From an uncultured Oscillospiraceae bacterium (GTDB taxonomy: Bacteria; Bacillota; Clostridia; Oscillospirales; Oscillospiraceae), in assembly GCA_947626315.1 (NCBI GenBank), contig CANQRQ010000003.1, forward strand, positions 1-64,000: a DNA stretch of 64,000 nucleotides, in the 5' to 3' direction. Below, one piece after another: positions 35,690 to 53,796 of the stretch. How positions within the stretch are numbered: position 1 is the first letter of the stretch; every line of letters starts with the position of its first letter. Made by a program: the position numbers and the translations under genes. The notes beneath the pieces are model-generated. The model made no database searches and was not told the origin of the DNA. It saw nothing but the letters and a program-made list of their open reading frames with translations.

Positions 35690-35694
35690 CAAGG

Positions 35695-35831
35695 CATCTT
35701 CAGGGCAGGGTGAAATTCCCGACCGGCGGTAAGGCAGAGGGGCCGCGCCCCCTTTGTCAAGTCCGCGAGCCGCAAGGCACGATCCGGTGCGATTCCGGAA
35801 CCGACAGTCAGAGTCTGGATGGAAGAAGATG
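35695..35831 (+). ncRNA. FMN riboswitch (RFN element)
   Basis: The conserved core is clear: ATCTTCAGGGCAGGGTGAAA at the 5' side, TTCCCGACCGGCGGT, a variable arm, GTCCGCGAGCC, GATCCGGTGCGATTCCGGAA, CCGACAGTCAGAGTCTGGAT and the closing GGAAGAAGAT that pairs with ATCTTC to form P1. It senses flavin mononucleotide and controls the ribU gene downstream by transcription attenuation through the terminator at 35868. Confidence 0.97.
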
Positions 35832-35867
35832 CGGGGAGCTTTTATTCCCGCCCCTTTTCGTATTTTA

Positions 35868-41500: not shown

Positions 41501-41534
41501 AGCATTGGCCCCGCGGCGCCGCGGGGCCAATGCT
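41501..41534 (+). terminator. Perfect palindromic terminator of yfhO
   Basis: AGCATTGGCCCCGCGGC is followed at once by its exact complement. Minus-strand reading is followed by TTTTTTT; a near copy of the arm (AGCATTGGTCCC / GGGGCCAATGCT) sits at 41741-41771 at the other end of the intergenic element. Confidence 0.7.
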
Positions 41535-41540
41535 GAGACT

Positions 41541-41714
41541 GTCAAAAAAGGGCCTTGGCCCTTTTTTGACAAAGGGGCTGCAGCCCGCTGCAGCGCACGA
41601 CAAAACCCGTCAAAGACGGGTTTTGCGCACGTTTGCGGGCTGAGAAGTGTTTTTTCCGACGTACACGCCGCCGGAAAAAACGATCTGACTGCTTTCGCGC
41701 CTGCGGGCGCGAAA
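41541..41714 (-). repeat. Structured intergenic element, copy 1
   Basis: Read on the minus strand it contains stem A (TTTCGCGCC / GGCGCGAAA, 41693-41714), stem B (TTTTTTCCG / CGGAAAAAA, 41650-41680), stem C (CAGCCCGC / GCGGGCTG, 41581-41642) with inner stem C' (AAAACCCGTC / GACGGGTTTT, 41602-41624), and stem D (GTCAAAAAAGGGCC / GGCCCTTTTTTGAC, 41541-41570). The same order occurs in copy 2 at 52435-52654 with compensatory changes in A, C' and D. No coding capacity is apparent. Confidence 0.75.
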
Positions 41715-41740
41715 CTCTGCGAGGCTGTTTTGTCAAACTG

Positions 41741-41771
41741 AGCATTGGTCCCGCACAGTGGGGCCAATGCT
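41741..41771 (-). terminator. Terminator of the TetR gene at the far end of the element
   Basis: AGCATTGGTCCC pairs with GGGGCCAATGCT around GCACAGT right next to the TetR stop codon. It mirrors the yfhO terminator arms at 41501-41534. Confidence 0.55.
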
Positions 41772-42374
41772 TTATTCCATATCTTTTTGCTGGAAGAAGC
41801 TCTCCAGGATCGCCCGGACGGAGCGGTACAGATAGGGCTTATAGGTCTCCAGATCCGTGGGGTTCTGCTCCAGGATCACGCTGTGGATCGAAGAGCCCAC
41901 CAGCTCGGTGACGGTGTAGATCAGCAGGACCATGTCCTGCCGGCTCAGGTCCGGCCGCCCCAGAAGCTGCTGGAAGACGCCGATGTAATCCGTCTCCGAC
42001 TTGCTCAGGGCCCCCTGGAAAATGCCCCAGCTCAGGTTTTTGCTGATAAAGCGGAGGATGATGGGGTTTTGGGAGATCTGGTCGAGAATGTCTTCAATAA
42101 TGGCGAGGATCCGGTCTGTTGGAGCGTCAAAGCGCTGATAGTCCGAGTGGGCCAGGGCATGGTCAAACAGATGCTCCGCCTTCCGAACGATCAGCCGGTT
42201 CTGAAGGTCGTACTTGTCCCGAAAATAGAGGTAGAAGGTGCCCTTGGCCACGTTGGCCCGCTCCACAATGTCCGCGATGGAGGTCTTGGAGATGCCCTTG
42301 GTGGTGAAGAGCTCATAGGCCGTGTCCAGCAGGTTCTTCTCCTTCTGCAGCTTGTTCGCCTCAACTTTTCCCAT
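41772..42374 (-). CDS. TetR/AcrR family regulator of the MMPL operon
   Basis: A 200-residue TetR protein: HTH with NLLDTAYELFTTKGISKTSI, then ADIVERANVAKGTFYLYFRD, the classic TetR pattern, and a helical C-terminal domain. It is divergent from the MMPL/YhgE-like operon. The intergenic DNA carries four copies of a TGACC-type palindrome, so it is the probable repressor of that operon and of itself. Confidence 0.9.
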   Translation of the reverse strand: MGKVEANKLQKEKNLLDTAYELFTTKGISKTSIADIVERANVAKGTFYLYFRDKYDLQNRLIVRKAEHLFDHALAHSDYQRFDAPTDRILAIIEDILDQISQNPIILRFISKNLSWGIFQGALSKSETDYIGVFQQLLGRPDLSRQDMVLLIYTVTELVGSSIHSVILEQNPTDLETYKPYLYRSVRAILESFFQQKDME

Positions 42375-42459
42375 ATTTTCACCCCTTTTTCCCGCATAAA
42401 AATCCCTTATTTATCATGATAAAAGACTTTTGCCCGCTTGTCAAATCTTTTTTGCACTC

Positions 42460-42600
42460 AAAAATGACCAAAAGTCAATTTCTGCAACCCGGGCCTTTTG
42501 TAAAAATGACCAAAGTTCATTTTTTGAAGCCGCAGGTATTGACTGTTGGTCATTTTTGTGCTATCCTCCTCTTAGAAAATGACGGACGGTCATTTTTGAA
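42460..42600. promoter_or_regulatory. Four TGACC/GGTCA operator sites and MMPL promoter
   Basis: Sites: 42460-42481 (AAAAATGACCAAAAGTCA), 42502-42526 (AAAAATGACCAAAGTTCATT), 42539-42558 (TTGACTGTTGGTCATTTTTG) and 42576-42596 (AAAATGACGGACGGTCATTT). The shared half-site is AAAAATGACC. The promoter TTGACT (42539-42544), 17-base spacer, TATCCT (42562-42567) is embedded in the third site, and the fourth covers the transcript start, so bound repressor would block transcription. Confidence 0.82.
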
Positions 42601-42613
42601 AGGAGGAGCGCTT

Positions 42614-44701
42614 ATGGAGAAGCTGAGCCGGCGGATCGTGAAGGCCCGTGTGCCGATCCTGATCCTGAGCCTGCTGCTGTTGCTACCGGCGGGCTTCGGC
42701 TATCTGCATACGCGGGTGAACTACGACATACTGGATTATCTGCCTGACGACATCGAGACCATGCAGGGGCAGGACATCCTCCTGCGGGACTTCGGCAAGG
42801 GGGCCTACGCCCTGTTCGTGGCCGACGGGCTGAACGAGGCCCAGGAGGTCCGGCTCCAGGAGAAGCTGGAGCAGGTGGAGCACGTGGAACAGGTGCTGTC
42901 CTTCAACACCCTGGCGGGCAGCAGCATCCCCCAGGACATCCTGCCGGATAAAATTTACGATTTCTTCCACTCGGAGACGGGCACCCTGATGGCGATCTTT
43001 TTTGACACCTCCACCTCCGCCGACGAGACCATGGAGGCCATCAAGGAGCTGCGGGCCGTGGCCGGGGAACAGTGCTTTTTGAGCAGCATGTCCGCCATCG
43101 TCACGGACACCAAGCAGCTGGTGGACGACGAGCTGTTCTGGTACGTGCTGATCGCCGTGGTGCTCTCCGCCCTGGTGCTGGCGCTGACCATGGACTCCTG
43201 GATGGCGCCGGTGCTGTTTCTGGTGACGGTGGGCATGGCGGTGATCTACAACCTGGGCACCAACATGCTCAAGGGGGAGATCTCCTTCGTCACCCAGGCC
43301 CTGGCGGCGGTGCTGCAATTGGCCGTCACCATGGACTACTCCATCTTTCTCTGGAACGCCTACCGGGAGCAGCTGAAAGAGACCGCCGGCAAGGAGGAGG
43401 CCATGGCCAAGGCCATCTCCGCCACCATTGTCTCCGTGGCGGGCTCCTCCCTGACCACCGTGGCCGGCTTCATCGCCCTGTGCTTCATGACCTTCACCCT
43501 GGGCATGGATCTGGGCGTGGTGATGGCCAAGGGCGTGCTGCTGGGGGTGCTCTGCTGCGTTACCGTCCTGCCGGCCTTCATCCTTCTGTTCGATAAGGCC
43601 ATCCAGAAAACCGGCCACAGGCCCCTCACCGTCAACGGCGAGAAGGCCGCCGGTTTTATCCTGAAGCACCGGAAGGTCCTGATGGCGCTGCTGCTTCTGC
43701 TGTGGATCCCCGCCATTATCGGCTACAACCAAATCCAGGTCTATTACAAGCTGGACGAGAGCCTCCCTGACGAGCTGCCCTGCATCCAGGCCAATAAAAT
43801 CCTGGAGGAGGACTTTGACACCAGCACCGTGCACCTGGTCCTGGTCAACGAGGAGATGCCCGTCAAGGACGCCAAGGCCATGCTGGACCGCATGGAGCAG
43901 GTGGACGGCGTGAAGGCCGCCCTGGGGATCGACTCCCTGGTGGGCTCCGCCATTCCCAAGGACTTCCTGCCCGAACAGCTGACGGAGGACCTGACCGCCG
44001 GCGGGCGGCAGTTGATCCTCATCACTTCCGAGTACCCCGTCGCCAGCGATGAAGTGAACGCCCAGGTGGATGAGCTGGAGGCCATTTTGAAGCAGTACGC
44101 CCCCGACGGCATGCTCATCGGCGAGGCCCCCTGCACCCGGGACCTGATCACCATCACCGACCGGGACTTCCAGGTGGTCAGCGCCGTGTCCATCGGGGCC
44201 ATCTTCCTGCTGATCTTCTTTGTGCTCCGGTCCGTCTCCCTGCCGGTGATCCTGGTGCTGGTGATCGAGCTGGCCATCTACATCAACCTGGCCATCTCCG
44301 GCTTTGACGGGGCCGTGCTGCCCTTCATCGCCTCCATCGTGGTGGGGACGGTGCAGCTGGGCGCCACGGTGGACTACGCCATCCTGCTCACCAACCGCTA
44401 CCAGACGGAGCGCCGCCTGGGGAAGGACAAAGAGGAGGCGGCCCACACCGCCCTGAGCACGTCCATCCCCTCGGTGCTGACCAGCGCCCTGGGCTTCTTC
44501 GCCGCCACCATCGGCGTGGGCCTCTACTCCGACGTGGACATGATCGGTACGCTGTGCCTGCTGCTGGGCCGGGGGGCCCTGATCAGCATGGCGCTGGTGC
44601 TGTGCCTGCTGCCCGCCCTGCTGATCGCCTGCGACGGGCTTATCGCAAAAACAAGCTGGGGGCGCCGCTCCCGGAAAAAGAACATGGAGGGACTGTCATG
44701 A
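42614..44701 (+). CDS. MMPL-family (RND superfamily) transporter
   Basis: A 695-residue protein with 11-12 membrane segments arranged as two repeats, each with a large extracellular loop after its first helix. Motifs include VTMDYSIFLWNAYREQLK and, in the second half, GATVDYAILLTNRYQTERR, the GxxxD-Y pattern of MMPL proton-relay helices. It exports lipids or hydrophobic compounds. Start ATG 42614 follows SD AGGAGG; upstream in-frame codons lie within the operator region. It overlaps the next gene by ATGA and is under TetR control. Confidence 0.92.
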   Translation: MEKLSRRIVKARVPILILSLLLLLPAGFGYLHTRVNYDILDYLPDDIETMQGQDILLRDFGKGAYALFVADGLNEAQEVRLQEKLEQVEHVEQVLSFNTLAGSSIPQDILPDKIYDFFHSETGTLMAIFFDTSTSADETMEAIKELRAVAGEQCFLSSMSAIVTDTKQLVDDELFWYVLIAVVLSALVLALTMDSWMAPVLFLVTVGMAVIYNLGTNMLKGEISFVTQALAAVLQLAVTMDYSIFLWNAYREQLKETAGKEEAMAKAISATIVSVAGSSLTTVAGFIALCFMTFTLGMDLGVVMAKGVLLGVLCCVTVLPAFILLFDKAIQKTGHRPLTVNGEKAAGFILKHRKVLMALLLLLWIPAIIGYNQIQVYYKLDESLPDELPCIQANKILEEDFDTSTVHLVLVNEEMPVKDAKAMLDRMEQVDGVKAALGIDSLVGSAIPKDFLPEQLTEDLTAGGRQLILITSEYPVASDEVNAQVDELEAILKQYAPDGMLIGEAPCTRDLITITDRDFQVVSAVSIGAIFLLIFFVLRSVSLPVILVLVIELAIYINLAISGFDGAVLPFIASIVVGTVQLGATVDYAILLTNRYQTERRLGKDKEEAAHTALSTSIPSVLTSALGFFAATIGVGLYSDVDMIGTLCLLLGRGALISMALVLCLLPALLIACDGLIAKTSWGRRSRKKNMEGLS

Positions 44702-46767
44702 ACGGAAAAACGAAAAAGCTTCTGGCCCTGCTCCTGGTCCTGTGCCTGTCCGCTGGCTGCCTGGCCGCCTGCGGCAAGAGCCCTGACCCGGTGGAACCGG
44801 CCGCCGATCTGGTAGATCAGACCATCCTCCAGGCCGCCTCCGACCTGCTGCCCACCCACGGCAGCACCGAGGGCAAGGAGGAGACCGTCTATGTGATCGC
44901 CGACGCCCAGGGTCAGCCGGAGCGCACCATCGTCAGCGCCTGGCTGAAAAACCCGGACGAGACGGACACCATCACCGACCGCTCGGACCTGAACGGCATC
45001 GAGAATGTGAAGGGCGACGAGAGCTTCACTAAGGACGCCGACGGCAGCCTGGTCTGGGATGCACACGGGAACGATATCTATTACCAGGGCGATTCCGACC
45101 GGGAGCTGCCTCTGGCGGTCCGCGTCAGCTACAAGCTGGACGGAAAGCTGGTGTCCCCCGAGGAGCTGGCCGGGGCCAGCGGGCACCTGGAGATGACCTT
45201 CCGCTACGAGAACAAGACCGGCCGTGAAGAGGAGATCGACGGCAAGACCGTGACCATCTATCAGCCCTTTGTGGCCGTGTCCTGCCTGGTGCTGGACGCC
45301 TCCAAGGCCAGCGCCGTGGAGGTGACCAACGGCACCACCATCAATTCCGGCGAACAGCTGATCGTGGCCGGCCTGGCCATGCCGGGGCTCAAGGAGAGCC
45401 TGGGCCTGGACGAGCTGGAGGACGCGGACGGCGAGGCGCTGGATGCGGACCTGCCCGAGACCGTCACCATCAACGCCGATGTACACGATTTCTCCCTGCT
45501 CACCACCGTGACCTTGGTGGAGAACGCCCTTTTGAACGATGTGGACCTGGAGAATGTGGAGAGCTTTGACGACCTGAAGGACTCCGTCAGCAAGCTGGCG
45601 AACGCCTCTGCCAGCCTGGTGGACGGGGCAGGCGACCTCTACAACGGCACCAAGGCCCTCTCCGGCGGTATGACGGAGGTGGTAAACGGCGCGGCGTCTG
45701 TGGCGGCCAACCTGGCCACCGTGCAGGAGGGCGTCGGGAAGCTGGCAGTTGGCTCCGCGCAGCTCCTGGCGGGGGTGGATCAGGCCAGTACCTTGTTCAG
45801 CAACAAGGCCACGGAAGACATAGCGGCTGCTCAGAAACAGGTGCAGGGCAGCTCGAAAGACATGATAACGGAAATTTTTGCCCTGAATCAGAGCTTTACC
45901 GGCGTAAAGACCGCCCTCGGAAACATCCAAACAACCGTGAGCAATCTGACTCTGGGCGACGACACGGAGGGCAAGCTCACAGCCATCGGAGAAAGCTCCG
46001 GAACTATCACCGCTACCGCCAGCGCGGAAAAGGACGCGCTTACCCAGGCGAAGACAGATATCGACGCCATCATCGACGGCCTTTCAGATGCCGGCCTGCC
46101 TGAGGAAAATGAGACTGCGCTTAGAACGGCTTTTGACCATGCTATCGATGCCGCGTTGGCTCAAACCAAGGCTATAAGTACAGAGAGCACGAGCATAACC
46201 GAAAATGTTGGTTTAGTCGGTACCGGTCTGGAGACGGCCAAGTCGGAGCTCTCAGGAAAGCTCCAGACCAATATTGATGAGCTCACATCAGCTATGACCG
46301 GATTCAGCACCAACATGCTGGCTATCGAGGATCTTTCCACCCAGTTGGGCACCCTGGAAACAAATCTTGAAACTCTGAAGGATCTGGATCTTGCGAAATC
46401 CTTTGGTGATCTGCAGCAAGGCGCCGCGGCGGTGAACGAAGGCGCGAAGGAGCTCAACGACCCGAAGGCGGGTGTTCCCGCCTTGGCCGCCGGCGCGGCG
46501 GCGCTGAAGGACGGCACCCAGAGCCTTGCCGCCGGGGTCAACCAGGTGGCCGACGGCGCCAACGCCCTGCTGAGCGGCCTGCGGACCTTTGACGGCGACG
46601 GGGTCAAGGTCCTGTCCCGGCTCTTCGAGGAGGACGCCCAGGGCTTCATGGACCGGCTGCGGGCCGTCCAGGCCTACGGCGAGGAGTATGACAACTTCTC
46701 CGGCCTGGCCGACGGCATGCCCGGCACAGTGCGCTTCGTGATCCGCACGGACTCCATCGGCGAATAA
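44698..46767 (+). CDS. YhgE-like lipoprotein with heptad-rich repeats
   Basis: A 689-residue secreted protein. The signal sequence ends in LSAGCLAACGK, with two candidate lipidation cysteines. After a folded part of roughly 290 residues comes a long helical region full of repeats such as GAGDLYNGTKALSGGM, GVGKLAVGSAQLLAGV and GAAALKDGTQSLAAGV, like the 'X-X-X-Leu-X-X-Gly' repeats of YhgE/Pip proteins. It lacks the C-terminal membrane helices of YhgE. It is coupled to the MMPL transporter, so it probably forms an extracellular adaptor for it. The repeat part around 45790-46420 is somewhat less GC-rich than the ends. Confidence 0.8.
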   Translation: MNGKTKKLLALLLVLCLSAGCLAACGKSPDPVEPAADLVDQTILQAASDLLPTHGSTEGKEETVYVIADAQGQPERTIVSAWLKNPDETDTITDRSDLNGIENVKGDESFTKDADGSLVWDAHGNDIYYQGDSDRELPLAVRVSYKLDGKLVSPEELAGASGHLEMTFRYENKTGREEEIDGKTVTIYQPFVAVSCLVLDASKASAVEVTNGTTINSGEQLIVAGLAMPGLKESLGLDELEDADGEALDADLPETVTINADVHDFSLLTTVTLVENALLNDVDLENVESFDDLKDSVSKLANASASLVDGAGDLYNGTKALSGGMTEVVNGAASVAANLATVQEGVGKLAVGSAQLLAGVDQASTLFSNKATEDIAAAQKQVQGSSKDMITEIFALNQSFTGVKTALGNIQTTVSNLTLGDDTEGKLTAIGESSGTITATASAEKDALTQAKTDIDAIIDGLSDAGLPEENETALRTAFDHAIDAALAQTKAISTESTSITENVGLVGTGLETAKSELSGKLQTNIDELTSAMTGFSTNMLAIEDLSTQLGTLETNLETLKDLDLAKSFGDLQQGAAAVNEGAKELNDPKAGVPALAAGAAALKDGTQSLAAGVNQVADGANALLSGLRTFDGDGVKVLSRLFEEDAQGFMDRLRAVQAYGEEYDNFSGLADGMPGTVRFVIRTDSIGE

Positions 46768-46781
46768 CAATAATACAGCAA

Positions 46782-46830
46782 AAGCCCCTCGGATTTGGCC
46801 TGTTCACCAAACCCGAGGGGCTTATTTTAT
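46782..46830. terminator. Bidirectional terminator after the YhgE-like gene
   Basis: AAGCCCCTCGG and CCGAGGGGCTT pair, with inner TTTGG/CCAAA, followed by ATTTTAT and preceded by A-rich sequence. It serves both convergent genes. Confidence 0.85.
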
Positions 46831-46837
46831 ACTTAAA

Positions 46838-47329
46838 TCACAGATGAACGTCGATGCGCCGGATCAGCACGGCGGCCAGGATGCCCACCGCGATGCCCGC
46901 GATGGTGCCGCTCAGGATCAGGAAAGGCAGGTAATACACGATGACGTTCGTCTCCAGCAGCAGGCAGGCCATGCCGATCTGCCCCACATTATGCAGCACC
47001 CCGCCCAGGACGCTGACCGCCACGTAGGAAAAGGCGGGGATCCTTTTCAGCAGCAGCATCCCGCCCAGGCTCAGCACCGCGCCGGCCAGGCTGTACAGAA
47101 AGCTGGCGCCGGAGCCGAAGAGCAGGGAGACCAGCGCCACCCGCAGCAGGGAGATGACCGCCGCCTCCTTTGTGCCCAGCTTGTACAGGGCAAAGACCAC
47201 GATGATGTTGGCCAGGCCCACCTTCACGCCGGGAATGGCCACAAAGGAGGGGAGCATGCTCTCCAGATAGGACAGGACCATCGCCAGCGAGATCAGCAGG
47301 GCCATGGTCGTCAGTTTCTTCGTTTTCAT
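46838..47329 (-). CDS. Gx transporter family protein
   Basis: A 163-residue membrane protein with five segments starting KLTTMALLISLAMVLSYLES, with FVAIPGVKVGLANI and VLHNVGQIGMACLL, the standard features of the Gx (heptaprenyl diphosphate synthase component I-like) family, which resembles ECF S components. It is probably a transporter for an isoprenoid or small cofactor. It lies next to a NusG-domain-II protein, a pairing seen repeatedly in Firmicutes. Confidence 0.87.
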   Translation of the reverse strand: MKTKKLTTMALLISLAMVLSYLESMLPSFVAIPGVKVGLANIIVVFALYKLGTKEAAVISLLRVALVSLLFGSGASFLYSLAGAVLSLGGMLLLKRIPAFSYVAVSVLGGVLHNVGQIGMACLLLETNVIVYYLPFLILSGTIAGIAVGILAAVLIRRIDVHL

Positions 47330-47341
47330 AGGCTGCTTCCT

Positions 47342-47737
47342 TTATCCCACGACTACGTCCACCGTCTGCTCGCCGCCTACCACCGTCACCGTCAGCTTGT
47401 TGGGCAGGCAGGTGATGGTCTGGCCGCTGAGATGGATCTTCCCCTGACGGACGCAGAGCTTGTCCGGGCAGTTGGCCTCCCGGAGCCAGGCCTCGCCGCC
47501 GCTTATGACCAGAATGTTGCTGCCGCCGTTGAGGGCGTATTCCCCCTCCTCCGCCAGGGAGTAACGGGCCGTCTCCTGGCCGTTCACCCGCACCAGCACC
47601 TCCGCGCCTGCCGTCTGCCCCTGCCGGAGCAGGAAGTACAGAGCGGCGGAGAGCAGCAGGAAAAAGGCGACCAGGAGCAGGTCCCAGCGTTTGCTTTTAT
47701 GGGCAGAGCCTTTCATGTAAAAGACCGGCAGGATCAA
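47342..47737 (-). CDS. NusG domain II-containing protein
   Basis: About 131 residues: a membrane anchor (LLLVAFFLLLSAALYFLL) and an extracytoplasmic NusG-II fold with EANCPDKLCVRQGKIHLSGQ and TITCLPNKLTVTV, the typical double-cysteine pattern. Function is unknown, but linkage to the Gx transporter is conserved in this lineage. The start is either TTG 47737 (SD GGAG 8 bases upstream) or ATG 47716 (no SD). Confidence 0.8.
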   Translation of the reverse strand: MILPVFYMKGSAHKSKRWDLLLVAFFLLLSAALYFLLRQGQTAGAEVLVRVNGQETARYSLAEEGEYALNGGSNILVISGGEAWLREANCPDKLCVRQGKIHLSGQTITCLPNKLTVTVVGGEQTVDVVVG

Positions 47738-47888
47738 GAGAGGAGCTCCGGGCGGGCGGCGATACCGCCGGGCCCGGAGAGAGCGGGACCGTAAACTCCT
47801 CTCCCCGCGCTTCCTTTCCGCATTATCTCGTCTCCTCTTATTTTATAACACGGCCCGGCCGGAAGCAAGCCTTTTTCCGATTTTGCGA

Positions 47889-47917
47889 TTTACAAAGCGA
47901 AAGCTTTGTACTATAAT
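47889..47917 (+). promoter_or_regulatory. Promoter of the methionine synthase operon
   Basis: TTTACA (47889-47894), a 17-base spacer, and TATAAT (47912-47917). The -35 and spacer include the hairpin ACAAAGC-GAA-AGCTTTGT, which may be an operator. No S-box or cobalamin riboswitch is visible between it and ATG 47943. Confidence 0.75.
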
Positions 47918-47942
47918 CGTTAAAAAATGCGGAGGGGCGCTT

Positions 47943-48611
47943 ATGGAGCCGAGGCTGACAGGCATCAACCGAAGAGAGGCGCTTATATACCTGGGCTACA
48001 GGGGCGGCGCCCTGGAGGGCGTGGAGGAGGAGCTGGAGCGCTGCGAGGAGCTGGTGCTGAAGACCGCCCGGCCCCGGGCGGTGTGGCGGCGATTTGCCTT
48101 ACTGCCGGACGGCTCCCTGGAGGGGGCGGATTTCCGCCCGGAGGGGGAGGACGTGCAGGCGCTGCTGGCGGAGAGCCGGGAGGCGGTGCTGCTGGCCGCC
48201 ACCCTGGGCGCGGAGATCGAGGCCCTGGTCCGGCGGACCCAGGTGCGGGACATGGGCCGGGCCATGCTGTTGGACGCCTGCGCCAGCGCCGCCATCGAGA
48301 ACGTGTGCGACAATCTCTGCGCCGACCTGGCCGCGGAGCTGGCCCCCCTGCATCTGACGGACCGGTTCAGCCCCGGCTACGGGGACCTGCCGCTGAGCTG
48401 CCAGGCGGATTTCTTCCGCCTGCTGGACATCCCCCGGCGGATCGGGGTGAGCCTGTCGCCGGGGGGACTGATGCTGCCGCAGAAGTCGGTCACGGCCCTG
48501 CTGGGCCTGGCGGACCGGCCCCAGCCCCGGCGGAGCGGCGACTGCGCCGTCTGCGGCCGCTTTGAGGACTGCTCCCTGAGAAAGGAAGGGATACGCTGTG
48601 GGAGAAACTGA
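47943..48611 (+). CDS. Methionine synthase activation-domain protein
   Basis: A 222-residue protein corresponding to the C-terminal reactivation domain of cobalamin-dependent MetH, here as a separate polypeptide. It shows LLAATLGAEIEALVRR, ENVCDNLCADLA, the RFSPGYGDLPLSCQ signature that binds S-adenosylmethionine, and GLMLPQKSVTALLGL, then a C-terminal CxxC group (CAVCGRFEDC). It rescues oxidised cobalamin by reductive methylation. ATG 47943 follows SD GGAGGGG. It overlaps the next gene (MetH core) by 14 bases. Confidence 0.92.
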   Translation: MEPRLTGINRREALIYLGYRGGALEGVEEELERCEELVLKTARPRAVWRRFALLPDGSLEGADFRPEGEDVQALLAESREAVLLAATLGAEIEALVRRTQVRDMGRAMLLDACASAAIENVCDNLCADLAAELAPLHLTDRFSPGYGDLPLSCQADFFRLLDIPRRIGVSLSPGGLMLPQKSVTALLGLADRPQPRRSGDCAVCGRFEDCSLRKEGIRCGRN

Positions 48612-50949
48612 ATTTACCCTTCTGGACGGGGCCATGGGCACCATGCTCCAGGCCGCGGGCCTGCCCGCGGGGACCCTGCCGGAGACCTGGAACATCACCC
48701 GGCCGGAGGAGGTCACCGCCGTCCACCGGCGCTATGTGGAGGCGGGGAGCCGGGTGCTCTACGCCAACACCTTCGGGGTCAACCGGTTGAAAACCGCCGG
48801 CTGCGGCTACTCCGTGGAGGAGCTGGTGGCCGCGGGCATCCGGGCCGCCCGGGCGGCGGACCGGGGCGAGGGCGTCCGGGTGGCGCTGGACGTGGGGCCG
48901 CTGGGCCAGCTGCTGGAGCCCCTGGGCTCTCTGCGCTTTGAAGAGGCCTATGACATTTTTAAAGAGCTTGTGCTGGCCGGGGAGGCCGCCGGGGCCGACC
49001 TGGTGGTGTTCGAGACCATGAGCGACCTGTACGAGATGAAGGCCGCCGTGCTGGCCGCCAAGGAGAACAGCCGTCTCCCGATCTGGAGCACCATGACCTT
49101 TGAACAGAGCGGCCGGACTTTTCTGGGGACGACGGTGCCCTCCATGGCCCTGACCCTTACGGGCCTGGGGGTGGACGCCCTGGGCTTCAACTGCAGTCTG
49201 GGGCCGGCGGAGCTGCTGCCCCTGGCGGAGGAGCTCCGGCGCTGGACGGATCTGCCGCTGATTTTAAAGCCCAACGCGGGCCTGCCGGACCCGGCCACCG
49301 GGGCCTATGCCCTCCAGGCGGAGGACTTTGCCCGGCAGCTGGTCCGGGGGGCTGAGCTGGGCGTGACGGTTTTGGGCGGCTGCTGCGGCACCGGGCCGGA
49401 CTATATCCGGGCCCTGGGCCGGGAGCTGGCCGGCCGGAAGCCGGGGGAGCGCCCGGCCCCGGACCGGCGGGGCCTCTGCTCCGCCTCCCGAACGGTGCCC
49501 CTGGACGGGCGCGTGCGGGTCGTGGGGGAGCGGATCAACCCCACCGGGAAGAAGCGCTTTCAGCAGGCCCTGCGGGAGCGGGACATGGACTATATCCTCC
49601 AGCGGGGCGTGGAGCAGCAGGACGCGGGGGCGGACATCCTGGACGTGAACGTGGGTCTGCCCGGCCTGGACGAGCCGGCGCTGATGCGGGAGACGGTAAA
49701 GGCCCTGCAGGCGGTGGTGGACCTGCCGCTGCAGATCGACAGCTCAAACCCCGCCGCCATCGAGGCGGGGCTCCGGGCGGTGAACGGCCGGGCGGTGGTG
49801 AACTCCGTCAACGGGGACCGGGAGACCCTGGAGGCCGTGCTGCCCCTGTGCAAAAAGTACGGCGCGGCGGTGGTGGGCCTGTGCCTGGACAAGAACGGCG
49901 TGCCCCGGACGGCGGAGGAGCGCCTGGCCATCGCCCGGCGGATTTTGGCCGCGGCGGAGGCCTATGGCATCCCCCGGGAGGACGTGCTGATCGACTGCCT
50001 GACCCTCACCGTCTCCGCCCAGCAGGAGCAGGCGGCGGAGACGCTGAAGGCCCTGAGAACCGTATCCGGGGAGCTGGGGCTGCATACGGTGCTGGGGGTC
50101 AGCAACATCTCCTTCGGCCTGCCCGCCCGGGAGCAGATCACCGTGAGCTTTTTGACCCAGGCCCTGGCCGCGGGGATGGACCTGCCCATTGTCAACCCCA
50201 ACCAGGCCGCCGTGATGGACGCGGTGGCCGCGTTCCGGGTTCTCTCCGGCCAGGACCCAAACAGCGCCGCCTATATCGAGCGCTTCGCCGCCGCCCCCGC
50301 CGGGGAGCCAAAGCCCCGGACCGGGGAGCCCATGAGCCTGGAGACGGCTGTCGCCAAGGGCCTGGGGGCGGAGGCCAGGGCCCTGACGGAGCAGGCCCTG
50401 GAGAGCATGGAGGAGCTGGAGGTGGTCAACCGCCTGCTGATCCCGGCGCTGGACCGGGTGGGGGAGCGCTATGAGCGGCAGGAGATCTTCCTGCCCCAGC
50501 TTATGAGCGCGGCCAGCGCCGCCTGCGAGGGCTTCGAGGCGGTAAAGGCCCGGATGGCCCGGCGGGGGGCCGGAACGGTCTCCAAGGGGAAGATTTTGCT
50601 GGCCACCGTCAAGGGGGACATCCACGATATCGGCAAGAACATCGTCCGGGTGGTGCTGGAAAACTACGGCTACACGGTGCTGGACCTGGGGCGGGACGTG
50701 CCGGCGGAGGAGATCGTCCGCACGGCGATTCAGGAGGATGTGAAGCTGGTGGGCCTCTCGGCCCTGATGACCACCACGGTCCCCAGCATGGAGGAGACGA
50801 TCAAGGCCCTCCGGGCCAGCGGCCACGCCTGCAAGGTCCTGGTGGGCGGCGCGGTGCTGACGCCGGAGTACGCCCGGCAGATCGGCGCGGACTTCTACGC
50901 GAAGGACGCCAAGCAGAGCGCGGATATCGCCCGGCAGGTGCTGGGCTGA
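48598..50949 (+). CDS. metH: Cobalamin-dependent methionine synthase without activation domain
   Basis: A 783-residue enzyme that methylates homocysteine from methyltetrahydrofolate through methylcobalamin. Domains in order: homocysteine-binding barrel (1 to about 285, zinc ligands in NCSLGP and GGCCGTGPDYI), methyltetrahydrofolate barrel (about 300-560, VGERINPTGKKRF and DVNVGLPG), and cobalamin cap and binding domains (about 570-783) with the base-off motif DIHDIGK at 674-680, His676 being the axial ligand. It stops there: the activation domain is the separate gene upstream. The start is GTG 48598. It is followed by metF, completing methyl supply. Confidence 0.94.
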   Translation: MGETEFTLLDGAMGTMLQAAGLPAGTLPETWNITRPEEVTAVHRRYVEAGSRVLYANTFGVNRLKTAGCGYSVEELVAAGIRAARAADRGEGVRVALDVGPLGQLLEPLGSLRFEEAYDIFKELVLAGEAAGADLVVFETMSDLYEMKAAVLAAKENSRLPIWSTMTFEQSGRTFLGTTVPSMALTLTGLGVDALGFNCSLGPAELLPLAEELRRWTDLPLILKPNAGLPDPATGAYALQAEDFARQLVRGAELGVTVLGGCCGTGPDYIRALGRELAGRKPGERPAPDRRGLCSASRTVPLDGRVRVVGERINPTGKKRFQQALRERDMDYILQRGVEQQDAGADILDVNVGLPGLDEPALMRETVKALQAVVDLPLQIDSSNPAAIEAGLRAVNGRAVVNSVNGDRETLEAVLPLCKKYGAAVVGLCLDKNGVPRTAEERLAIARRILAAAEAYGIPREDVLIDCLTLTVSAQQEQAAETLKALRTVSGELGLHTVLGVSNISFGLPAREQITVSFLTQALAAGMDLPIVNPNQAAVMDAVAAFRVLSGQDPNSAAYIERFAAAPAGEPKPRTGEPMSLETAVAKGLGAEARALTEQALESMEELEVVNRLLIPALDRVGERYERQEIFLPQLMSAASAACEGFEAVKARMARRGAGTVSKGKILLATVKGDIHDIGKNIVRVVLENYGYTVLDLGRDVPAEEIVRTAIQEDVKLVGLSALMTTTVPSMEETIKALRASGHACKVLVGGAVLTPEYARQIGADFYAKDAKQSADIARQVLG

Positions 50950-50966
50950 AGAGAGAGGGAGAAGCT

Positions 50967-51851
50967 ATGAGCGGAGAGAACAGATTTTACGAGGCGCTGA
51001 CGGGCGGAGGGCGGAAGCCCTTTGCCGTGGAGCTGGATTCCCCGGAGGGGCCGGACGCGGAGAAGTTCATGGCCGGGGCGGCCCAGCTCCAGGCCGGGGG
51101 CGCGGACCTGATCACCGTGGCAGACTGCCCGGTGGCCCGGCCCCGGATGGATTCCAGCCTGATGGCCTGCAAGCTCCGGCGGGAGCTGGGCATGGACGCC
51201 ATGCCCCACATGACCTGCCGGGACCGGAACCGGAACGCCAGCCAGGCCCTGCTGCTGGGCCTCTACGCGGAGGGAGTGCGCAACCTGCTGCTGGTGATGG
51301 GGGACCCGGTGCCGCCGGAGGAGCGGCAGGCGGTGAAGGGCGTGTATAACTTCAACTCCGTGGACTTTATCGCCTTTGCGGACCGGTTCGGCCGGGAGCG
51401 GCTGCCGGAGCCCTTCCGCATCTACGGCGCGCTGGACCTGAACGCCCGGAATTTCGCCCCGGAGCTGGAGCGGGCCAAGGCCAAGGAGGCCGCCGGGGCC
51501 CTGGGCTTCTTCACCCAGCCGGTGCTGACGGAGCGGGCCCTGGAAAATCTGAAGCTGGCCCGCCGGGCGCTGAAGGGCCGCCTGGCCGGCGGCATCATCC
51601 CCGTGGTCAGCCAGCGCAACGGCCTGTTTATGGACCAGAACATCCCCGGCATCTCGGTGGATCCCCGGATCATCGACCTGTACGAGGGAGCGGACAAGGA
51701 GCGAGGAGAGGAGCTGGCCCTGGAGGTCTCCGCCGCCGCGGCCGGGGCCATCGCCCCCTATGTGGACGGCTACTATCTGATGACCCCCTTCTCCCGCACG
51801 GCGCTGATGGTGCGGATCATGGAGCGGATCAGGCAAGAGGGTTTAACATAA
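50967..51851 (+). CDS. metF: Methylenetetrahydrofolate reductase
   Basis: A 294-residue TIM-barrel flavoprotein that reduces methylene- to methyltetrahydrofolate. It shows FAVELDSPEGPDAEKFMAGA, MPHMTCRDRNRNASQALLLG, LLLVMGDPVPPEE, FFTQPVLTERALENL, GGIIPVVSQRN and GYYLMTPFSRTALM, consistent with MetF. It lies 17 bases after metH, so the operon makes the methyl donor and uses it. SD GAGAGGGAG precedes ATG 50967. Confidence 0.92.
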   Translation: MSGENRFYEALTGGGRKPFAVELDSPEGPDAEKFMAGAAQLQAGGADLITVADCPVARPRMDSSLMACKLRRELGMDAMPHMTCRDRNRNASQALLLGLYAEGVRNLLLVMGDPVPPEERQAVKGVYNFNSVDFIAFADRFGRERLPEPFRIYGALDLNARNFAPELERAKAKEAAGALGFFTQPVLTERALENLKLARRALKGRLAGGIIPVVSQRNGLFMDQNIPGISVDPRIIDLYEGADKERGEELALEVSAAAAGAIAPYVDGYYLMTPFSRTALMVRIMERIRQEGLT

Positions 51852-51900
51852 TAAACGAGCCAGTCCCGCGGCTTTTTCGCCGCGGGACTGGCTCGTTTAT
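51851..51900. terminator. 22-base perfect bidirectional terminator
   Basis: ATAAACGAGCCAGTCCCGCG and two more bases pair perfectly with the complement around TTTTTC. It separates metF from the convergent cupin gene and includes the end of the metF stop codon. Confidence 0.85.
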
Positions 51901-51907
51901 TGTGGCC

Positions 51908-52255
51908 TTACTTGTAGAGGATCAGGGCGATGGCCTCCAGAGTCTCCGGACCTCTGTTGAGCAGGGCGTGGCCCTCCCCGTCGTCCACAAAGGTCACGTC
52001 TCCGGGGCCAACGGTCACGGTCTGGCCGTTGTCGTTATACTCCCCCTGGCCCTTGAGAATGTAATAGATCTCGCCGTCCCCCTTGTGGATATGCCAGCCA
52101 ACCTCACAGCCGGGCTCCAGAAACAGGTGGCTGAACACCCGGCCCTTGCCGTACAGCTCCTCGGGGTTTTCCCGGATGCGGACCAGCCTGGCCTGCCCCG
52201 CCCCGTCAAACATCTTCTTCACGTCCACTGTCCGCTCGCCGCTGCGTCTGACCAT
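51908..52255 (-). CDS. Cupin domain protein
   Basis: A 115-residue single cupin. Motif 1 is EVGWHIHKGDGEIYYILKGQ and motif 2 is VGPGDVTFVDDGEGHALLNR, with the metal ligands (two His, Glu, His) in place. Small cupins of this kind bind a metal and may act as isomerases or sensors; the substrate is unknown. The start is ATG 52255 (SD AAGGGG); the earlier in-frame extension lacks SD and similarity. Confidence 0.85.
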   Translation of the reverse strand: MVRRSGERTVDVKKMFDGAGQARLVRIRENPEELYGKGRVFSHLFLEPGCEVGWHIHKGDGEIYYILKGQGEYNDNGQTVTVGPGDVTFVDDGEGHALLNRGPETLEAIALILYK

Positions 52256-52434
52256 AAAAAAGCACCCCTTATCTGAATATTTTCGCGGGATCCCCGCCTT
52301 TACCGGTATTATACAGCATGGGGGACAATGCTGCAAGTCTTGCATTTTAACGAAAATCTTTATAAAAATGGTGTTTTCCCTTCCGACAAGGCTCGCCGGG
52401 TGGTCGACGAACTGCGCACCTTGGCCTCGCAGAG

Positions 52435-52654
52435 TTTCGCCGCCGGAGCGGCGAAATCATTCAAATCGTTTTTTCCGGGGACACACCCCAGGGTGGCTTC
52501 TCTTGCCCCTTCGGGGCAATTCACCTGCTGTGCCTCGGAAAAAACTCTTCTCAGCCCGCAAACGTGCGCGAACCCCGTCTCTGACGGGGTTCGTCGTGCG
52601 CTGCAGCGGGCTGTAATCCCTTTGCTCAAGAAGGCCCGAAGGGCCTTCTTGAGC
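52435..52654 (+). repeat. Structured intergenic element, copy 2
   Basis: Stem A (TTTCGCCGC / GCGGCGAAA, 52435-52456), stem B (TTTTTTCCG / CGGAAAAAA, 52469-52544) with an inserted inner hairpin TTGCCCC-TTC-GGGGCAA, stem C (CAGCCCGC / GCGGGCTG, 52552-52613) with inner C' (GAACCCCGTC / GACGGGGTTC, 52570-52592), and stem D (14-base arms, 52624-52654). Stem D contains the stop codon of the minus-strand nucleotidyltransferase. Sequence between the stems is nearly the same as in copy 1, while stems differ by compensated changes. The stretch 52256-52434 holds no gene; it includes an 18-mer shared with the MITE-like element. Confidence 0.75.
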
Positions 52655-53678
52655 AGTTATCCAGCGCTTCGGCCAGCTCCTTGGCGGAGAGGGCCAGCTC
52701 CCGGGCAAATTCCGTATCCTCGGAGGATACGGCGATGCGCAGGGCCGAGCGGGCGGCCAGCGGGGCGATGTGCAGGTCAAAGCGCTGTCCGTGGAGGCGG
52801 AGACCGTCAGAGTAGTCCGCGCCCAGGTCCAGCATCGCGGCGGACAGGGCCCCCATCAGCTCCGCCCGGCTCCGGCAGGCGCAGTCCAGGCAGACGGCGC
52901 CCTCCTCCGGCGGCTCCTCTTCCTCGGCTGCCGGGGCAGTCTGAAAGGCCCCGCCCGGCTCCAGCTTCAGCCGGCCCTCCAGGGCGTCCACACAGCAGCG
53001 GTAGTAGGACAGGGGTGTGCCCACATCGCACCAGTAGCCCTCCATAGGGACGCCCAGCAGCAGCTCGCCCCGCCCCAGGAGCAGGGGGAACAGGTCCTTG
53101 GCAAAGTCGAAGGCCCGGCCGGCGGGCACCGGCTCCATGGCCCAGGGGGAGACGATATAAATGCCGGTGTTCACCAGGTCCGTGACCACCCGGCCCCAGC
53201 GGGGCTTTTCGATAAAGGCCCGCACCAGACCCGCCTGGTCCGTCACCGCCAGGCCGTAGCTCAGAGGCTCCGGGTTCCGGCAGAGGGCCAGCGTCACGGC
53301 GGCCCGGCTCTCCCGGTGCCGCCGCATGAGCTCGGCCAGGTCAAAGTCACAGGCCGCGTCTCCGCTGATCACCAGAAAGTCCTCCCCGTCCCAGAAGTCG
53401 GCGCAGTTTTTCACGCCGCCGGCGGTGCCCAGCGGCGCGTCCTCTACCCGGTACTGGAGCTGTACGCCCAGGGCGCTGCCGTCCCCGAAGCGGGACATGA
53501 TCTCCTCCGCCCGGTATTTGACCGTGGCGCAGATCTCCGTAAAGCCCTGCTTTTTCAACAGCAGGAGGATGTGCTCCATCATGGGCCGGCCCAGCAGGGG
53601 AGCCATCGGCTTCGGCGTGTCGCCGGTAACGGCCTTCAGGCGCGTACCCTGGCCGCCCGCCATAATCACGGCTTTCAC
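52626..53678 (-). CDS. Sugar-phosphate nucleotidyltransferase with residual phosphomannomutase tail
   Basis: A 350-residue protein. Residues 1 to about 235 form a GT-A nucleotidyltransferase (VIMAGGQGTRLKAVTGDTPK, VISGDAACDFDLAELM, FIEKPRWGRVV, GYWCDVGTPLSYY). In related proteins this domain continues into a full phosphomannomutase; here, after an acidic linker, only a stretch resembling the final subdomain is left (LGADYSDGLRLHGQRFDLHI and onward). The middle mutase domains are missing, implying an internal deletion. The last residues (DNCSRRPFGPS) are encoded by stem D of the structured element. The start is GTG 53678 with SD GGGAGG. Substrate (mannose-1-P or glucose-1-P) is uncertain. Confidence 0.78.
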   Translation of the reverse strand: MKAVIMAGGQGTRLKAVTGDTPKPMAPLLGRPMMEHILLLLKKQGFTEICATVKYRAEEIMSRFGDGSALGVQLQYRVEDAPLGTAGGVKNCADFWDGEDFLVISGDAACDFDLAELMRRHRESRAAVTLALCRNPEPLSYGLAVTDQAGLVRAFIEKPRWGRVVTDLVNTGIYIVSPWAMEPVPAGRAFDFAKDLFPLLLGRGELLLGVPMEGYWCDVGTPLSYYRCCVDALEGRLKLEPGGAFQTAPAAEEEEPPEEGAVCLDCACRSRAELMGALSAAMLDLGADYSDGLRLHGQRFDLHIAPLAARSALRIAVSSEDTEFARELALSAKELAEALDNCSRRPFGPS

Positions 53679-53767
53679 GGCCGCCTCCCTTCCGCCCGGC
53701 GGAAACGGCTTTTCCCCGGGCATCCATTCGCTGCTTTTATTATTCTCCGGCGCGGTGAAATTATTTG

Positions 53768-53796
53768 TTGTAAACACAGAGCAGATTTGCTATAAT
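53768..53796 (+). promoter_or_regulatory. Promoter of the gdpP-rplI-dnaB operon
   Basis: TTGTAA (53768-53773), 17-base spacer, TATAAT (53791-53796), about 90 bases ahead of gdpP. Confidence 0.75.

Follow-up and report, generated by a model that had tools for sequence, protein, structure and literature searches.

A repeated, structured intergenic element of Oscillospiraceae with the properties of a miniature transposable element, IS1182-type ends and duplicated flanking hairpins

The 64,000-nucleotide stretch of DNA analysed here (the window; positions 1 to 64,000 of contig CANQRQ010000003.1, assembly GCA_947626315.1), from an uncultured Oscillospiraceae bacterium, carries two copies of a structured intergenic element, copy 1 on the minus strand and copy 2 on the plus strand, in both of which the stems follow the order A-A'-B/C-D. 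The copies belong to a repeated family of about 200 bp which is very probably a family of miniature inverted-repeat transposable elements (MITEs), likely mobilized in trans by transposases of the IS1182 family and likely inserting at intrinsic terminators, with the same hairpin on both flanks of 51 of 136 copies. Sequence comparison established fixed element ends, flank duplications the size of a palindrome, one empty site with a single hairpin, the absence of copy 2 from two relatives, and IS1182 relatives with nearly the same terminal repeats. The original prediction had described two homologous copies with compensated stem differences and had offered three guesses as to their nature, namely, a 3'-untranslated-region (3'-UTR) RNA, a mobile palindromic unit, and a nucleoid or protein binding site; the copies were found at the places and with the stem order that it gave, and the mobile palindromic unit is the best supported of its three guesses.

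The genome (G000; 2.68 Mb in 68 contigs, 97.75% complete) was searched with the copy 2 sequence, an 18-base pattern, and a covariance model. The 18-mer CAGCCCGCAAACGTGCGC, with up to three mismatches, was found within the window only at the two copies; with up to two, it occurred 17 times in the genome, versus 0 times for a reversed control pattern. The covariance model returned 35 matches at an E value of ≤0.01, including 19 strong copies (E ≤ 6e-13), and among the weaker 16 were members of a second element type as well as shadows of strong copies on the reverse strand. The usual arrangement was a left terminal repeat, the box CCTCGCAGAG, stem A, a linker, stem A', a linker, stem B enclosing an internal loop and hairpin C, a linker, hairpin D, and a right terminal repeat, and the length between repeated hairpins was mostly about 175 to 215 bp. 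Stem A' was extended in five copies (L001 to L005), L005 had an insertion at C, and L019 and L027 were without C or B/C. The neighbouring genes differed from copy to copy. In the genus, 36 of 61 genomes had the element (DNA search, E ≤ 1e-5). The search of related genomes with a covariance model, which the original prediction had suggested, located it, within the taxonomic family, in 103 of the 200 genomes sampled and in 68 of 106 genera (E ≤ 1e-4). In the order, it was present in 30 of 295 genomes (E ≤ 1e-6), 11 of them in three other families, making four families in total. A pattern scan of named genomes gave at least 120 stretches; among 80 listed, the model confirmed 68 (75 matches). Confirmed hosts included Flavonifractor sp. 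An82, Pseudoflavonifractor sp. An85, an uncultured Oscillibacter, Sporobacter termitidis DSM 10068, and Candidatus Faecousia, and in Papillibacter cinnamivorans the pattern was present and a covariance-model match was absent.

The flanks were compared in a working set of 144 copies, made up of 76 of the 87 matches from one search and 68 of the 75 from the named-genome scan; the former omitted L074, which duplicates L123, and ten weak matches, most of which overlapped others on the reverse strand, and the latter omitted three matches cut by contig ends and four of the lowest-scoring ones. Among the 136 distinct copies with both flanks, 51 lay between direct repeats with a score of ≥28, versus 2 of 2,689 mismatched flank pairs. 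The repeats were hairpin sequences of 19 to 43 bp and were identical in 22 of the 51 cases. Their inner edges abutted the element ends at a nearly constant distance from the core and lay within 1 nucleotide of the palindrome end in 40 of the 51 copies on the left and in 34 on the right, and repeat length correlated with palindrome length (r = 0.80). When either orientation was allowed, the count was again 51 of 136 (control, 7 of 2,697), with 44 copies matching better directly, 6 better inverted, and 1 tie. The outer flanks were terminator-like, with a frequency of A of 0.45 on the outer left and of T of 0.43 on the outer right. A palindromic target is documented for the 51 copies between repeated hairpins and for those alone. 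A first count of duplications (24 of 105 at a score of ≥28; control, 3 of 2,086) was replaced, the right-hand hairpin having sometimes been mistaken for D. In one pair of orthologous insertions, L242 and L266, whose flanks were about 95% identical, the flanking hairpins differed between species and agreed within species, as if by concerted evolution.

Comparison with two relatives, G018 and G268, revealed sites without the element (gene names here and below are those of the original prediction or were assigned by eye). In the gap between a ylqC-like and a rimM-like gene, the element of G000 lies between CAAATAGCCGAGGCGGAAGTCTCGGCTATTTG and CAAGTAGCCGGGGCAGGTGACCCGGCTACTTG, and G018 has an empty site, with the element absent and the single hairpin AAATAGCCGAGGCGGGAGTCTCGGCTATTT in its place. 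G268 has the same insertion (89% identity over 821 bases); in its copy, two A-stem pairs were swapped yet still paired, A' had A-U instead of the G.U wobble, and the right-hand hairpin had mismatches. At the copy 2 site, the element was absent from G018, where the neighbouring matches were 97 bases apart, versus 405; it was also absent beside the nucleotidyltransferase-like gene of G268, the other neighbour of which is on another contig. The surroundings of copy 1 had no synteny in G018 or G268. Orthologous flanks of L052 and L061 were without the element and had no clean junction, and when the other copies of G000 were compared with 17 loci of G268, both flanks were present for L010 only. At L061, another repeat-like stretch, CGGATTGCCACGGCTCC...TCGCAATGACA, adjoins the element. 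Deletion of the target hairpin, as in IS1272, was not what these sites recorded, with one hairpin in the empty site of G018, two in G000, and 51 duplicated cases.

The differing neighbours, the presence or absence of the element between species, the empty sites, and the terminal inverted repeats with target duplications all argue against the element being a fixed 3'-UTR or intergenic regulatory RNA of its neighbours, rarely duplicated, immobile, and kept for regulation. That explanation is very unlikely, although the strong covariation and the conserved wobble motif described below would suit it. The orientation of the neighbours bears on it in both directions. With a codon-score gene caller, the 113 copies were arranged as << (41), >< (38), >> (11), and <> (5), with 18 uncalled, and the D-side gene therefore pointed toward D in 79 of the 95 called copies. 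Such a bias is compatible with a regulatory role, but it also means that the D-side neighbour is transcribed against the core; since the wobble pairs indicate the other strand, a 3'-UTR RNA of the D-side gene, one of the earlier guesses, is unlikely. An orientation count based on the longest open reading frame (ORF) (>> 36, <> 32, << 19, >< 18, 8 uncalled; n = 113) disagreed with the codon-score count and was dropped, antisense ORFs having seemingly been taken as genes.

The literature on the hairpin targets of IS1272 led us to search the family genomes for the IS1182 transposase model NF033551 (transpos_IS1182). IS1272, a member of the IS1182 family from staphylococci, is described as targeting hairpins without sequence consensus, several of them confirmed terminators, with partial deletion (PMC4923244), and is reported to replace or delete the hairpin and to produce no duplication (PMC5678879). 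The authors of the latter study also outline a possible route by which the entire stem-loop would be duplicated, through joining at its 5' feet (PMC5678879). The present element resembles IS1272 in its hairpin targets and in the transposase family of its proposed partner, and it differs in that the whole hairpin is duplicated and that it has a folded core and no transposase gene. In the 200 family genomes, 37 had a match to NF033551 at an E value of ≤1e-20, 18 of them above the cut-off. Among 30 of the matching loci, element-like terminal repeats stood on both sides of four, L362, L364, L365, and L366, whose proteins scored 377 to 389 bits on NF033551 (cut-off, 270) and whose genomes carried the element in 7, at least 16, at least 16, and 1 copies, respectively. 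A search of the genus with the L364 protein found relatives in 15 of 102 genomes (E ≤ 1e-30); of ten loci with ends read, L391 and L394 again had matching repeats together with one and the same hairpin on either side. The terminal repeat of the element, CAGNNTGTC(A/G)AAAAA, was matched, save for its last base, in L362, L364, L365, and L391 to L395 (single-base variants). The end repeats of L364, L365, L391, and L394 were CAGACTGTCGAAAAAC, CAGTTTGTCAAAAAA, CAGCCTGTCAAAGAAC, and CAGCTTGTCAAAAAAC, respectively, and each of these four loci, all with a transposase gene, had the same hairpin on both sides. The transposases of L391 and L394 were 76% identical to that of L364.

Several observations weigh against mobilization by IS1182-type transposases at palindromic targets. 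No duplicated hairpin was found at the threshold for 85 of the 136 copies, copy 2 included. G000 had no IS1182 transposase match in its 68-contig, 97.75% complete assembly, and IS1182 was not enriched with the element, which was carried by 17 of the 37 genomes with a match versus 86 of the 163 without one. The repeats of the insertion sequences finish in ...AAC and those of the element in ...AAG; the two hairpins of L364 are reverse complements of each other; the L391 match contains one in-frame TAA; L366 and L396 are flanked by differing hairpins on their two sides; and L378, in a genome (G115) that is not among the element-positive ones, is bordered by such a repeat at a single end. Finally, the core was not found in the 30 insertion sequence loci (no match at E ≤ 1). 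The core is therefore not an apparent leftover of a transposase gene, and mobilization through the ends does not explain the core or its conservation. Given the lack of a match in G000 and the missing family-wide association, the partner and the element do not, at present, go together in individual genomes. MITEs may outlive their partner transposase, and the presence of a transposase in the same genome is not a defining feature of them.

Two other transposition systems were weighed against the IS1182-type partner. Another transposase producing long target duplications, such as the long-duplication group of the IS1202 family, is a highly improbable mobilizer. The duplications of that group are 16 to 28 bp, and the related ISAjo2 group has 5'-TGT ends (PMC10132070). 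The duplications of the present family range from 19 to 43 bp, however, and track the palindrome, and the matching terminal repeats (such as CAGNNTGTC) accompany transposase genes of the IS1182 type; no search for IS1202 transposases was made. Also highly improbable is spread as repetitive extragenic palindromic (REP) sequences or bacterial interspersed mosaic elements (BIMEs) by a Y1, or REP-associated tyrosine, transposase (RAYT). Like those sequences, the element is multicopy, palindromic, and intergenic, but it has terminal inverted repeats and target duplications, and its ends are nearly those of an existing DDE-type family. By eye, no GTAG/CGTC tag was present at the hairpin foot of the window copies (CGTC occurs inside A' and C), and the ORFs between six pairs of neighbouring copies were not transposase-like by eye, no search for the Y1 family having been made. 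A RAYT-like partner between close copies was thus considered and rejected; by eye, and with no domain search, these intervals held era-, mgtE-, asnA-, TetR-, and yidC/jag/rnpA-like genes, and nothing was recognised for L190.

Among known nonautonomous elements, the closest likeness is to bacterial MITEs, which, according to a review (PMC10969869), are short and nonautonomous, with terminal inverted repeats, target duplication, many copies, and stable folds. The present element differs from them in that its duplication is a palindrome of variable length and in that the transposase loci examined hold no match to its conserved multistem core. The main text of that review makes no mention of IS1182. 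SPRITE, BOX, and RUP of Streptococcus pneumoniae are also intergenic and structured, and SPRITE is described as terminator-like in the same review (PMC10969869). Their host is a different one. To our knowledge, terminator duplication is not a feature of SPRITE, BOX, or RUP, a point for which the literature was not searched. Neither an IS1182-derived MITE, nor a terminator-duplicating MITE, nor this element was described in the titles and abstract beginnings of the open-licence PubMed Central articles listed by the searches. The element may be present, without a name, among the 3,161 RNA candidates catalogued from human microbiomes (PMC8040213). At the Rfam gathering score, the sole match in the window was a flavin mononucleotide (FMN) riboswitch elsewhere, at 35692-35834 (RF00050; 108.2 bits). 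When the two copies were compared with Rfam at lax E values, 21 and 4 matches appeared, every one below the gathering score, and ten related loci gave one malK-I match, away from the element. The earlier remark that no named family matched the element accordingly held for Rfam at gathering scores and not for its ends and targets, which fit IS1182-type transposable elements.

The fold of the core was assessed in two alignments, the copies in which were not independent, several being from one genome or from related species. In the first (21 sequences aligned with MAFFT, one of which supplied the structure), 94.7% of cells paired, versus 85.9% in shuffled and 42 to 54% in slid alignments, and double changes occurred in 21 of 46 pairs; for further pair types, one of the five measures used, 16 of 500 shuffles attained the observed value. 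The second comprised 48 more diverse, high-scoring sequences, which were hand-chosen and aligned without structure. RNAalifold recovered the same helices from it with no structure imposed, and compensated double changes were present in 33 of the 41 predicted pairs. Here 97.3% of cells were paired (81.5% shuffled; 39.3 to 51.5% slid), 301 cells had double changes versus a shuffled mean of 74.9, and none of 500 shuffles reached the observed value on any of the five measures. Stems A, A', B, and C are real, and the compensated differences in A, C, and D that had been noticed between the two window copies were as described, with the further copies in agreement. Helix 4 had no double changes and contains a conserved motif, the adjacent pairs U.G (48 of 48) and G.U (44 of 48); the loops of the core were conserved as well. 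Outside four wobble columns, G.U was counted 37 times and A.C 8 times, which superseded an earlier count of 241 and 29 that was dropped, its alignment having been fitted to the model. On this wobble pattern, the folded form is more likely to be the plus strand by itself, whether RNA or single-stranded DNA, than a cruciform of double-stranded DNA. We infer that selection on the plus strand maintains the folded core (A, A', and B/C), RNA being the most likely form. The earlier contention that the copies reflected selection and "not mere duplication" holds for the conserved structure and needs qualifying as to duplication, as the 51 duplicated hairpins and the empty sites record spread by insertion as well.

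A mutational process alone, such as template switching at palindromes or conversion between copies, might also keep stems complementary, in which case the covariation would be silent on RNA function. This explanation is unlikely, though far from negligible. It would account for the compensated differences that the flanking hairpins also show (L010 and L011) and for the alternation of the A stem between the same two forms, both among copies and between orthologues. The U.G and G.U pairs of the helix 4 motif, however, persist where correction should yield Watson-Crick pairs, the excess of G.U over A.C is a strand asymmetry not expected from double-stranded correction, and the conserved loops also speak against it.

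Within the window, copy 1 with its terminal repeats occupies 41535-41740 (minus strand), between similar hairpins at 41741-41771 and 41501-41534 (direct score, 32; inverted score, 38). Read along the minus strand, the left target hairpin T (AGCATTGGCCCC...; 41741-41771), 3' of a TetR-like gene, is followed by the left terminal repeat CAGTTTGACAAAACAG (41725-41740; usual form in the element, CAGCTTGTCAAAAAAG), the conserved box (41715-41724), stem-loop A (41693-41714), stem-loop A' with its conserved G.U pair and loop (41649-41681), and stem B with the conserved internal loop, its tandem wobble pairs, and hairpin C (41581-41642). Hairpin D (41540-41571), which is terminator-like in both directions and may act as such, holds the inner part of the right terminal repeat ...TTTTTTGACAGTCTC (41535-41549), and the right target hairpin T' (41501-41534) adjoins the 3' end of a yfhO-like gene. 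Copy 2 (plus strand) begins with the conserved box (52425-52434), in front of which no left terminal repeat was recognisable, and continues with stem-loop A (52435-52456), stem-loop A' with a long apical extension, also seen in L002 to L005 (52468-52545), stem B with the internal loop and hairpin C (52552-52613), and hairpin D (52623-52655). Neither copy is long enough to hold a transposase gene. The nucleotidyltransferase-like ORF (52626-53777, minus strand) runs into D of copy 2 and ends there (...LEALDNCSRRPFGPS), D giving its final codons and stop. The placement just past the 3' end of a gene, as originally proposed for both copies, thus did not hold for copy 2. The G018 counterpart of this ORF ends in ...EALDL and a stop, and in G018 and G268, which have no element at this site, the gene has its own stop codon at about the same point; by this comparison, the end of the predicted gene is altered by copy 2.

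Other repeated elements were encountered during the searches. A second multihairpin type in G000, with the left end CAGACTGTAGACAAAG and the right end (reverse complement) GAGCGTGTCGCAAAAG, with variants, was located at L098 (C11:67211), L100 (C5:115887), L101 (C25:24312), L104 (C5:63469), L105 (C3:133634), and L106 (C52:9206); L098 had the same hairpin on both sides. The IS1182-type locus L397 has a variant repeat, CAGCCTGTAGACAAAG, that fits this second type. A third type in G000 was found at L138 (C31:2133) and L151 (C12:2942), and L138 has an identical ACACGAAAAAAACCGCCTTCGGGCGGTTTTTTTCCTGG on either side; this duplication, of 38 bp, extends a few nucleotides past the palindrome at both ends. 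In G185 (C1, about 156147-156560), a tandem array of another structured unit was present, with the hairpin GAAACCGC(C/T)GCAGGAGATGCGGCGGTTTC occurring three times around two units. At L220, an rnpA-yidC-jag-like gene group lies between two oppositely oriented elements. A scan of 400 kb of G185 and the collected loci for elements between repeated hairpins yielded other element types, none of them autonomous.

In the mechanism proposed for IS1182-type mobilization, the transposase, acting in trans, would cut or join an extruded terminator at its feet, and the palindrome would be duplicated during repair. Insertion would part the old hairpin from its T-tract, and D, at the right end, could restore termination of the neighbour, which would make insertions nearly harmless. 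By a loose score, D formed a hairpin in 130 of 140 copies, and in 70 of these its 5' arm held an A-tract and its 3' arm a T-tract. For the orientation of the D-side gene, a bias in insertion is an equal alternative to restored termination. A broader proposal, which we regard as possible but somewhat short of probable, is that the core represents a new class of structured RNA, present in at least four families and marked by the tandem U.G/G.U motif, and that it has been spread by a self-healing IS1182-type mini-transposon that copies the host terminator and brings a second one, so that harmless landings install new copies of an RNA gene.

The family offers many natural cases of structure-directed insertion with duplication of a whole hairpin, which in the work on IS1272 was no more than a possible pathway; the palindrome, and not a constant length, determines the edges. 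These findings bear on the prediction of terminators and on the calling of "covarying" intergenic RNAs, and they raise the question of why the core of a protein-less transposon keeps an RNA-like fold across families. Duplication of this kind would explain why matched hairpins occur at the ends of genes in this bacterial family.

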